DNA of 64,000 nucleotides, taken from the NCBI GenBank assembly GCA_017640605.1, contig JAEPQH010000005.1:1-64000 (forward strand), in the 5' to 3' direction. The first letter of the stretch is position 1. Every line of letters begins with the position of its first letter. The position numbers and the translations under genes were made by a program. Below are positions 39,213 to 45,136 of the stretch, one piece after another. Under the pieces are notes generated by a model. The model saw nothing but the letters and a program-made list of their open reading frames with translations, ran no database searches and was not told where the DNA came from. This stretch comes from Balneolaceae bacterium. Its GTDB lineage: Bacteria > Bacteroidota > Rhodothermia > Balneolales > Balneolaceae.

Positions 39213-39253
39213 TAATATTAATCGTACTCGTAAAAATGTATTCCTTCAAGTAT

Positions 39254-39676
39254 TCATAATGCCTGCCGAATAGTACGCAAGGTAATTTGATCGGAGCTTT
39301 TATCTACAACTTGATACAGAAAACTTTGAATTTCACCATTCGGGTTATTTGAAGTACGGTATTCTATCGAAAGATATATTTCGGGATACTCGCCATAAAT
39401 ATTCCATCTGCAATATCCGTAAAAATTATCAGGTCGTACAGAATTATAGATCTTGCACGAATTAAAACTATTTGCAGTAAATGAGTAACGAATATGTTGA
39501 CTAGTGGGAAGTTCAGCTGAATCAATCAGCTTGTGAATTGTAAATGTATCGTTGAATTTAACCCGAGTCCATTCACCTTCTAAATTACTTGGGATCAAAT
39601 CAAATTTTTCATCAGTTTCACCTAAAATGGAACAATGAACGAAGCTTACCAATAGTAAACATAGTACGAATCTCAT
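39254..39676 (-). CDS. tandem lipoprotein paralogue 4 (C-x14-C-x-W family)
   Basis: A 140-residue outer-membrane lipoprotein by signal: MRFVLCLLLVSFVHC with lipidated C15 and Ser at +2. GEW lies at 34-36 and the family motif is C74-x14-C89-x-W91-x-I-Y. The motif reads like a small beta-barrel or lipocalin-like sheet closed by a disulfide. I do not recognise a named family. It is the last of four paralogues on the minus strand; its ATG overlaps the stop of the preceding copy as ATGA. Function unknown. Confidence 0.8.
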   Translation of the reverse strand: MRFVLCLLLVSFVHCSILGETDEKFDLIPSNLEGEWTRVKFNDTFTIHKLIDSAELPTSQHIRYSFTANSFNSCKIYNSVRPDNFYGYCRWNIYGEYPEIYLSIEYRTSNNPNGEIQSFLYQVVDKSSDQITLRTIRQAL

Positions 39677-40095
39677 GATGGGTCATCTCTTTTCGTTCCT
39701 ATTTGAACAACTCGAAAAGTGTGTTCATTTAACTCCTTGATTCGATATAGTTCACCCACAAAAAAGTGCCATTGAATGACAATTTCATCATAGTCTATTT
39801 TAAGATATATGTCTGAGGCATCAGCATAAATTCTCCATTCACAGTCTCCAAACCTGTTATTTGGTGGATAGATATATTCGAGAGTACAGCTGTTATCAGA
39901 TTTAAAATTGATAAGCCTTACTGGGGCGTTTGTGGAATCAAATTCGCCGGTTTTAACCAAATTGATAGAGCCTTTAAATTCATCTTGGTACCATTCGCCA
40001 TAAAGTTGGAGGGGATCTATTTCATACTTCTGCTCATTATCGAAAAGTGAACAGGAAAAATAAAACAACGGGAGAATCCAGATGAGATGTTTCAT
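39673..40095 (-). CDS. tandem lipoprotein paralogue 3 (C-x14-C-x-W family)
   Basis: A 140-residue lipoprotein beginning MKHLIWILPLFYFSC, with lipidated C15 and Ser at +2, then GEW at 33-35 and C70-x14-C85-x-W87-R-I-Y. The frame is open to 40125, but the start at 40095 places the signal peptide correctly and leaves a ten-base gap to the preceding paralogue. Length and motif spacing equal those of the neighbours although overall identity is low. Its stop overlaps the next copy by four bases. Confidence 0.8.
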   Translation of the reverse strand: MKHLIWILPLFYFSCSLFDNEQKYEIDPLQLYGEWYQDEFKGSINLVKTGEFDSTNAPVRLINFKSDNSCTLEYIYPPNNRFGDCEWRIYADASDIYLKIDYDEIVIQWHFFVGELYRIKELNEHTFRVVQIGTKRDDPS

Positions 40096-40105
40096 GATTA
40101 CGAGG

Positions 40106-40546
40106 TTAATGCAACACCACTTCACTTAACATTTTTAATCGAAATCGATCTTTTGAAAGCTCTTGAACTCTATAGAAATAACTGAAATTTCTTCGAATAG
40201 CATTATTGTCTTCTATGCTGTAAAATAATCTGAAATAAAGGTCTGGCTCTGCTCCTTGAATTAACCAGGTACATTTTCTGTAGTAATTTGTAGGCCTATT
40301 TGAATGTGTAATAATACATGAAGTGTAACCATTACTTTCTATCAAATCATAGATAATATAGTATTCAGCTTCATTAGCTTTATCACGGTTATATGGTCTT
40401 AACACGAAGTCTTTATCACTACTTAAGTACATCCATTTTTGAGCAGCATAGTCCGAATTGATTTCAATTACTCCTTCTGTTTCAAGTATTGAACAGTTAT
40501 TCAGTGTAACTATGATTAGTAGTAAATATGCCAACCTAATTATCAT
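40106..40546 (-). CDS. tandem lipoprotein paralogue 2 (C-x14-C-x-W family)
   Basis: A 146-residue lipoprotein with signal MIIRLAYLLLIIVTLNNC, lipidated C18, and Ser at +2. It is the most divergent copy: QKW (36-38) stands where the others have GEW, yet C77-x14-C92-x-W94 keeps exact spacing. The C-terminal YRVQELSKDRFRLKML matches YRIKELNEHTFRVVQI and YEIIELSQDRLIVNTL of its neighbours, confirming common ancestry. ATGA overlap with paralogue 1. Confidence 0.8.
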   Translation of the reverse strand: MIIRLAYLLLIIVTLNNCSILETEGVIEINSDYAAQKWMYLSSDKDFVLRPYNRDKANEAEYYIIYDLIESNGYTSCIITHSNRPTNYYRKCTWLIQGAEPDLYFRLFYSIEDNNAIRRNFSYFYRVQELSKDRFRLKMLSEVVLH

Positions 40547-40977
40547 TGATTGTAACCTCCCAATGTATTTACGATTAATCTATCTTGTGAAAGCTCTATA
40601 ATTTCATATAAGATACCTGTGCTTTTATCAAAAAAAGTTGGAGCTGGTAATTGATAATCAAAATCTAGATTTAAGAAGAAACGAGTATAGTTTTCTTCAG
40701 CGTAAATCGACCAAACACAGCTCCAATGTCTATTATATTTAGGTTTAAGATCATTTATTGAGCAATCATTAGATTCAAAAAAATCGATAGTTATAATTCT
40801 CTCAAACTCGGCAGTATCTATTTTCGAAGGGTGAAAAAAATTAGGATTTCCATCTTCATCATGAATAAGATACCATTCCCCAATAATGCTGGGAGGATGA
40901 ATTTCTAAATCCTGTTCATTTTCAAATACAGAACAGGAAAATAGAAATGGAATTAAACATAGACCTAAAAAACGCAT
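40543..40977 (-). CDS. tandem lipoprotein paralogue 1 (C-x14-C-x-W family)
   Basis: A 144-residue lipoprotein and the first gene of the array. Signal MRFLGLCLIPFLFSC with lipidated C15 and Ser at +2, GEW at 33-35, and C72-x14-C87-x-W89-S-I-Y. The conserved NEQ after the lipid cysteine is shared with paralogue 3. The promoter for the whole array should lie in 40978-41038, where I see no clear element. The protein probably faces the periplasm or the cell surface. Function unknown. Confidence 0.8.
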   Translation of the reverse strand: MRFLGLCLIPFLFSCSVFENEQDLEIHPPSIIGEWYLIHDEDGNPNFFHPSKIDTAEFERIITIDFFESNDCSINDLKPKYNRHWSCVWSIYAEENYTRFFLNLDFDYQLPAPTFFDKSTGILYEIIELSQDRLIVNTLGGYNQ

Positions 40978-41038
40978 GCCCCTGAATTTTTTATCAACTA
41001 AGGGCTAACGTATGAAGAACAGATGAAGTGTGCAGAAA

Positions 41039-42300: not shown

Positions 42301-43782
42301 TTACCAATCCCACCGACTTTCAAAACCGTCCCATTCATTCTCAAGAAGTGGCAAGTTCATTTGCTTAAATACACGCACACCTACTGTAAAGCCTACCCAG
42401 AATTGATAATCTCTGCCTTTTCGATCGGGCGACCATAAACTGTACCAACTGTAATCTTCGCTACCGGTTACACGAGAAACTTGCATATTGATACTTGGAC
42501 CTGCATATAACGAGAGTCCGTTCGCAAATCTATTTCCTACTAAATATTTGTAAGAATACATCATATTGAGTGTTTTGTCATAGTCTCCTTCAAACACATG
42601 ATGGGCACTAAACTCCTGATTCACAAAAAGGGTAGTGCTCTCAATTTTCTCGAAAGAATCTTGGATGTTTTTTTCTAACCCAACGGCAAATCCTATTCGG
42701 TACACCTCACGGTCGAGTAAGGTGTTATATCCAAACATTGCCATGTTATACACTCTGTGGGTTCCTGTTGTGATAGAAAAATCGGTAAATCCACCATCAG
42801 AAAATCGTACATCAAGATTTTTTCTTCCATTTCCGTAAATGCTTAGAACTCCCAAAGGTACGCCTTCAAATTCCTTTGCTATATTGAGGATTCCGATTTG
42901 TACCCCCATCGCAGATTCGCTGAAATTTACCATTGCAGATTGCACCCCATTTAATTCACGAGCAAAGTTTCCAACTCCGGCAATAGATAAACCATTAATA
43001 TTTTTCGCAAGATTTACTCCTCCGGTAAATAGTAAACCATCAGCATTTTCGCGTGATAAGTTGAACACACCTGACGCAAATAAGCCTTCAATATTACCTA
43101 ACGCTATATTTGCTCCAAACGTAGCCTGCATACCGGATAAGTCATCACCTGCAAAGTTAAGAACACCAGATGCTTGCAACCCTTCAACATCATCTTTAGC
43201 TATATTCATGATTCCAGCTGCCTGCAAACCTGACAAATCTCCATTAGATGCATTCATAATTCCGGCTGCTTGTAAGCCTTCAACACTTCGCTCACTAATA
43301 TTTGCAATACCGGCAGCTTGGAGTCCCGAAATAGAAAGTCTGGAATAATTTAACCCTAAGGTAGCTTGAAGCCCTTCAATATCTCGATTAGAATAGTTGA
43401 GTGCGCCCGCAACTTGTAAACCCGACATTGATTTGTTTGCAACGTTTGCAATTCCCGCGATATTCAATCCTTCCATGGTACCACGCGTATAGTTGGTTAT
43501 CCCTGCGATTTGCAACCCCGCAGAATAGTATTTTGTACCATTGTAGAGTAAACCAATTTCCCAGCCATCAAGCGCACCATGGTATCCACCAATAAGATTG
43601 ATCGATCTTTTAGCGGTAAAGTCGGTTGTGCGAGCGCCGTTGGTTGAGAGTGGAGGGATGATCGTTACACGCCATTTACGATATTCTAATTCATCGTATT
43701 TGTCGTAATCTTGTGCCACTGTTTGAGTTGATATGGCGAAAAGGGCGATGAGCAGAAACCCCAAAAATTTATTGCTTCTCAT
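42301..43782 (-). CDS. surface protein with 16-residue GLQxAGIxN repeats (LA_2272-like)
   Basis: A 493-residue exported protein: signal peptide 1-24 (MRSNKFLGF to TVAQ), then from about residue 88 some fourteen tandem repeats of consensus G-L-Q-x-A-G-I-x-N plus seven variable residues. The first ten are exactly 16 residues long, the next two 15 and then 14, and the remaining C-terminal 200 residues look like outer-membrane beta strands. The repeats resemble those of the LA_2272 surface-repeat family and probably form a beta solenoid with a Gly/Asn ladder. The ATG at 43782 is chosen since the signal peptide starts there. Function unknown. Confidence 0.85.
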   Translation of the reverse strand: MRSNKFLGFLLIALFAISTQTVAQDYDKYDELEYRKWRVTIIPPLSTNGARTTDFTAKRSINLIGGYHGALDGWEIGLLYNGTKYYSAGLQIAGITNYTRGTMEGLNIAGIANVANKSMSGLQVAGALNYSNRDIEGLQATLGLNYSRLSISGLQAAGIANISERSVEGLQAAGIMNASNGDLSGLQAAGIMNIAKDDVEGLQASGVLNFAGDDLSGMQATFGANIALGNIEGLFASGVFNLSRENADGLLFTGGVNLAKNINGLSIAGVGNFARELNGVQSAMVNFSESAMGVQIGILNIAKEFEGVPLGVLSIYGNGRKNLDVRFSDGGFTDFSITTGTHRVYNMAMFGYNTLLDREVYRIGFAVGLEKNIQDSFEKIESTTLFVNQEFSAHHVFEGDYDKTLNMMYSYKYLVGNRFANGLSLYAGPSINMQVSRVTGSEDYSWYSLWSPDRKGRDYQFWVGFTVGVRVFKQMNLPLLENEWDGFESRWDW

Positions 43783-43952
43783 AACTGATCCGTATTTAAG
43801 TTCGAGAACTATTACCGCCAAGTGCTTAAAATGTTTCACACTAAAATATCATGGGACTATTAACTTGATTGGCGTTTACTTAAGTGATGAAGGAATCATT
43901 AAAAAAGTCAGACAATTTTTAAACTCACTAAGTTCGAAAACAAAAAAATAGA

Positions 43953-44533: not shown

Positions 44534-45136
44534 CTAAAATTGTTTGATGCTAAAAAAAAATATGTTCGAATCAACGCCGGGATTCTCAGATCCTGTTTGC
44601 GCATTCGATATATGATGAAATGTATAGCCCAAAGATAAGTAGGTTTGAGAAAACAATTGGCGCTGTATAGCCAACTTGATATCGAATGAGTAATTCAGTC
44701 GTCTGCCTTTATCTGTGGGAAACGTTTTGTTGATTAAACTTAAACCACTTTTAATAGCAGTTTCGAAATCAAAATATTTAAAGGGCTTCACAAATGAATA
44801 GCCAAGAGGAGATATTCCGAAGCCTGAAACGATATCACGACGACTACCTTCATCTCTTTTTGGGTAGCTAAATTCGATGTAGGGTACAATACCGCGAGTC
44901 ACATAAGTATTAACACCAGGTAGGGGACTTTTGATTTCCTTTCCAAAGCCGATATACGAATAAAAGGTTTTAGTATTCGGCGTTTTACCAAGTAGTATTA
45001 CCGAATTCGTAGAGTATCCCAATGTTGTGGAAACATATCGGATTTCATCTTTCTCGGAAAGTTGAGCGAATGAATTAGAAAATGGATACGCGAGAATTAG
45101 TAGTAAAAGAAATCTAGCCTTAGTTAAGCAATCCAA
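44534..45136 (-). CDS. PagL-like lipid A 3-O-deacylase
   Basis: A 200-residue outer-membrane protein with a signal peptide (1-24, SNSFAQ) and amphipathic beta strands throughout. The C-terminal motif F-H-H175-I-S177-N-A, followed by NPGVD, matches PagL acyloxyacyl hydrolases, whose His-x-Ser dyad and acidic residue twelve positions after the Ser are catalytic; here D189 stands where PagL has Glu. It would remove a 3-hydroxyacyl chain from lipid A. The start is TTG, with no ATG available in the gap. It lies between the small membrane protein gene (11 bp) and cyclophilin gene (2 bp). Confidence 0.85.

Follow-up and report, generated by a model that had tools for sequence, protein, structure and literature searches.

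We identified a tandem array of four small genes in a Balneolaceae bacterium (assembly GCA_017640605.1) that we read, with modest confidence, as encoding envelope-anchored, slim lipocalin-like binders whose genes were inserted and then duplicated at the site, each copy diverging on its own. Each protein would start with a lipid anchor, joined by a short linker to a slim lipocalin-like barrel of eight strands. The array lies within the 64,000-nucleotide stretch of contig JAEPQH010000005.1 that we analyzed (positions 1 to 64,000; 'the window').

Array organization and protein features

The array occupies positions 40977-39254 of the minus strand and, as the first-pass annotation had described, comprises four genes for proteins of 140-146 residues separated by ATGA overlaps or a gap of at most ten bases. 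In order of transcription these are copy 4 (40543..40977, 144 residues, lipobox FSC-S, GEW motif, C72/C87), copy 3 (40106..40546, 146 residues, QKW replacing GEW, C77/C92), copy 2 (39673..40095, 140 residues, GEW, C70/C85) and copy 1 (39254..39676, 140 residues, GEW, C74/C89). For copy 2, the open reading frame caller also offers an alternative GTG start at 40125. The successive junctions are a 4-base ATGA overlap, a 10-base gap and a second 4-base ATGA overlap. The genes would form one set, probably co-transcribed and translationally coupled; promoter and terminator scans of the array returned nothing beyond chance.

A tblastn search with one copy recovers the other three at 9e-16, 3e-11 and 0.0024, and sequence comparison thus identifies the four array genes as true paralogs. 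Their pairwise identity is 25-36%. Profile searches found no further array copies elsewhere in the genome, and the sole extra match (tblastn/profile) is to an unrelated lipoprotein, N-terminal and weak (E 0.15). GC content is 0.306-0.362 in the array genes and averages 0.397 in the other window genes; at third codon positions, three of the four are the poorest in GC of all window genes counted.

The motif C-x14-C-x-W is exact in all four window copies, at the positions reported by the first-pass annotation. A related array in Balneolaceae HXMU1420-13, described below, retains C-x14-C in four of five copies and has x13 in the fifth. All nine array proteins have the first-strand Trp, which belongs to a GEW motif in seven. 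The proposed GEW-like motif near residue 35 is literal in three window copies and reads QKW in the gene at 40106-40546; QKW is confined to one ortholog pair, copy 3 and its HXMU1420-13 counterpart. All nine proteins retain the Cys pair, the Trp residues and the barrel pattern, in agreement with the earlier description of paralogs with low identity and a conserved structural core.

The signal peptide ends with Cys-Ser at the expected cleavage site in all four window copies, as previously noted, and the array proteins are probably anchored in the cell envelope as lipoproteins. In two of them an unusual residue precedes the lipid Cys (His in 39254-39676, Asn in 40106-40546), which makes lipidation of copies 1 and 3 less sure. 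The residues after the Cys are SILGE, SLFDN, SILET and SVFEN. In Bacteroidetes, surface export of lipoproteins is signaled by K-(D/E)2 or Q-A-(D/E)2 after the Cys (PMC5080379). Neither signal, which has not been established for Balneolota, follows the Cys in any of the four window copies, and the first-pass annotation's assignment of these proteins to the cell surface is thus left without support. Its 'outer-membrane' label also goes further than the data.

Elsewhere in the genome, an unrelated lipoprotein (L005, 1486-2070) has a mature part that starts with CSLFDNE, like array proteins. This start may thus reflect a habit of the lineage and not family membership. Matches in four other genomes (G019, G106, G014 at C5:218754, and G034) are confined to the N-terminal part, with the signal peptide and a CSLF(D/E)NE-type start, and we did not count them as relatives.

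A probable divergent lipocalin-like group

We obtained fold models for copy 2 (nine sequences; pLDDT 79.4, pTM 0.69) and copy 3 (eleven sequences; pLDDT 87.3, pTM 0.75). Both predict an eight-stranded beta-barrel with a short N-terminal helix, as in calycins and lipocalins, and both end with strand H. For both models, the top solved match of a structural aligner is the lipocalin-like protein BT_0869 (3hty), at Z 8.8 for copy 2 (85 aligned, 3.4 A) and Z 9.1 for copy 3 (86 aligned, 3.2 A). This entry stands about 2-3 Z above the next row, and avidins, BACOVA_00364 and other barrels follow at 5-7. Models that lack a clear match often reach Z scores of 7-8, and a Z near 9 is little above that. Foldseek gave neither model a match at E < 0.001, and probabilities were low. 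Comparison of array profiles with the sequences of solved structures yielded nothing credible.

In both models, the Cys pair is placed symmetrically about the loop between strands D and E. Most strands alternate hydrophobic residues, and both cysteines follow the phase of the inward-facing residues. This placement fits a predicted cross-strand D-E disulfide, and the geometry that the first-pass annotation proposed to look for is compatible with both models. Such a disulfide (C-x14-C, after which comes the strand E Trp) would probably staple the hydrophobic core of the barrel.

No array protein matches a Pfam or NCBIfam model above cut-offs, and the weak matches are scattered over unrelated families. 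Lipocalin_4 (Pfam accession PF13648) in particular matches none of the nine array proteins at E values up to 10, and a PF13648-family search of the whole window and sister (HXMU1420-13) genomes was empty. In profile-profile comparison of the mature regions (hhalign), the nine proteins formed the array set and 100 column shuffles of match columns served as controls; one shuffle that included gap-rich columns gave a score of 127.8 and a probability of 99.6%, which we take as an artefact. The array aligns with PF13648 members at a score of 28.5, against at most 11.8 for shuffles, yet with a probability of only 54-61%. In this alignment GEW falls on G-x-W, C-x-W on GTW and LYRIxELSxxxLxL on the ending of PF13648 proteins. 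A full-length comparison with smaller sets aligned 24 C-terminal columns and contributes little.

A second lipoprotein family bridges the two. Its members are single relatives (in G014, G028, G052 and others), and of 296 genomes sampled across the phylum 11 have the family. The array aligns with this bridging family at a score of 41.3 (shuffles at most 18.2; probability 91-93%), and the bridging family aligns with PF13648 at a score of 54.3 (probability 96%). The two bridging proteins that were scanned, P0010 and P0011, have weak PF13648 matches of their own (E 0.013 and 0.038). Profile scores above those of shuffles, together with this bridge, lead us to class the array as a divergent lipocalin-like group that would be distant lipocalin kin and is covered by no Pfam or NCBIfam model. 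The earlier remark that no named family was known holds for these databases, whereas the lipocalin-like barrel fold is recognizable.

Array proteins resemble Lipocalin_4 proteins, including BT_0869, as small secreted or lipoprotein beta-barrels. The two share G-x-W in the first strand, a further Trp motif in strand E (GTW in Lipocalin_4, aligned with the array C-x-W) and a Y-x-I-x-x-L-S-x-x-x-L-x-L ending. The array proteins differ in their tandem arrangement, in failing to match the Pfam model and in their D-E pair, C-x14-C-x-W, in place of the different Cys pairs of some PF13648 proteins. Bridging family proteins (P0010, P0011 and loci L078-L085, from Balneolaceae and elsewhere in the phylum) share lipoprotein character, length and barrel pattern with the array. 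Unlike the array, they lack the second Cys, occur in at most one copy in the genomes searched, occupy other genome positions and carry motifs of their own (W-x-x-S-x-E-E, Y-R-P and F-P-P-S-R). In two relatives (L020 7160-9815 and L038 2404-5059), a bridging lipoprotein gene stands in line with genes, named by eye, for an Xre/HipA-like pair and for a GyrI-like protein.

In features rather than sequence, the array proteins can also be likened to Bacillus subtilis YxeF and Escherichia coli Blc, which are lipoproteins with calycin-type barrels and, in contrast to the putative stapled barrels of the array, have no disulfide. The calycin Gly-X-Trp of strand A is present, with the Gly lost in one ortholog pair. 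Calycins also pair an Arg of strand H with the Trp (PMC3367933); strand H has no invariant Arg or Lys among the array proteins. The C-terminal helix that packs on the barrel of classical lipocalins is absent from both models, as it is from YxeF (PMC3367933).

An insertion spot with fast-diverging copies

The genes near the array encode bPH, MsrB, SNF symporter and TMEM260-like proteins, as they also do in HXMU1420-13. The interval that holds the window array (39213-41038) is bounded upstream by a bacterial PH-domain (bPH) gene (Pfam accession PF03703, 41039..41569, minus strand) and by a convergent sodium:neurotransmitter symporter gene (Pfam accession PF00209, 37728..39212, plus strand). A few genes upstream of the array lies a PagL-type lipid A deacylase gene (44534-45136, minus strand). 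The minus-strand gene at 42301-43839 encodes a protein of ~500 residues with many G-(L/M)-Q-x-A-G-x-x-N type repeats; it is conserved at the locus in relatives and has no Pfam match at E 0.001.

Using the bPH gene as an anchor, we located the corresponding loci in relatives. HXMU1420-13 (G001, locus L040), a member of the same genus, has five array genes in the same interval. In MAG.339 (G002) and ih13 the array is absent, and the bPH gene shares 4-6 bases, stop codons included, with the symporter gene. Copy number thus varies among relatives (4, 5, 0 and 0). The interval of HXMU1428-16 contains a creatininase-like gene and that of 7_bin.32 a CPBP-protease-like gene, both named by eye from sequence. 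Among the window interval and five matching intervals (L018, L037, L041, L042 and L044), two are empty, two carry the array and two carry another single gene, which points to a permissive insertion spot. A profile search covering 92 family and 394 phylum genomes detected no further arrays. The most parsimonious history is that the array was gained on the branch leading to the window species and HXMU1420-13. An ancestral gene would have been inserted between the bPH and symporter genes and then tandemly duplicated before these two species split.

The copies then diverged fast, each separately. Copy 3 is 44% identical to its HXMU1420-13 ortholog P0007 (copy c; tree support 80/98) and copy 1 is 41% identical to its ortholog P0009 (copy e; 97/94). 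Pairing by position only, copy 4 is 36% identical to P0006 (copy b) and copy 2 is 39% identical to P0008 (copy d). Copy-matched proteins of the two genomes thus have identities of 36-44% and a dN of 0.52-0.62, against 77-96% and 0.03-0.18 for six neighboring proteins. The dN/dS comparison that the first-pass annotation had proposed could be run on copy-matched pairs, where naive values are 0.22-0.52, against 0.04-0.05 for two neighbors where computable; synonymous sites in the array are saturated, and its values are thus indicative only. Positive selection was not detected in the array at this saturation. The BC and FG loops look copy-specific, being 41% and 33% identical between orthologs and ~10% identical between paralogs, but one pair accounts for most of the BC value and we base no claim on this pattern.

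Possible roles of the array

Calycins generally bind small hydrophobic ligands (PMC3367933), and lipocalin-like barrels also act as protease inhibitors (PMC2873492). In our reading, each array barrel would bind a small hydrophobic ligand or a partner protein of its own within the envelope. None of the adjoining genes favors ligand binding, protease inhibition or another role. More tentatively, the array may represent a lineage-specific repertoire of envelope binders kept at the insertion spot, with a different partner for each copy (a competitor protease, a toxin or a ligand).

We think it unlikely that the array is a set of protease inhibitors whose barrels block envelope or competitor proteases, in the manner of staphostatin-type inhibitors or the potempins of Tannerella forsythia. 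Staphostatins are lipocalin-like, and Bacteroides fragilis has small lipoprotein staphostatin-like inhibitors (PMC2873492); potempins are small, variable lipoproteins (PMC7296668). Fast copy-wise divergence fits an arms race, although the naive dN/dS is below 1. Potempin E is among the structure matches at Z 6.5, where it ties with avidins, and potempin A is reached by a PF13648-type profile at E 0.021. Known inhibitor sets adjoin their target protease, whereas no protease gene lies beside the array in the window or in HXMU1420-13.

We give similarly little credence to weakly constrained accessory lipoproteins, that is, a chance duplicate drifting under light purifying selection with no specialized roles. 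The high dN, low GC3, naive dN/dS of 0.22-0.52 (on saturated dS) and absence of the array from close relatives are consistent with such drift. Against it, all nine reading frames (four in the window and five in HXMU1420-13) are intact, the residues and barrel pattern common to the nine copies have been kept, and at least two copies have been distinct since before the species split.

Conflict genes are typically duplicated in tandem, patchily distributed, poor in GC and quick to diverge, and the array shares these traits, but an immunity or adaptor array, in which each lipoprotein neutralizes or masks one toxin, bacteriocin or phage, is improbable because toxin and defense genes are absent alongside the array, PADLOC and PHROG searches gave no match worth naming, copy 3 has no match in plasmid or phage records, and at least two copies were retained as orthologs rather than turned over. 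The phage recognition, adhesion and immunity roles suggested by the first-pass annotation likewise find nothing near the array that points to them.

The reading of the array as duplicated envelope binders places an otherwise unannotated gene array among lipocalin-like proteins. What is new is a lineage-restricted tandem version, probably stapled by a disulfide, of an already known type of protein, and it overturns nothing. The same site with zero, four and five copies in near relatives, beside far better conserved flanking genes, provides a natural comparison. This makes the array a manageable system in which to study why small envelope barrels are multiplied in bacteria and which selective pressures make them diverge so quickly.
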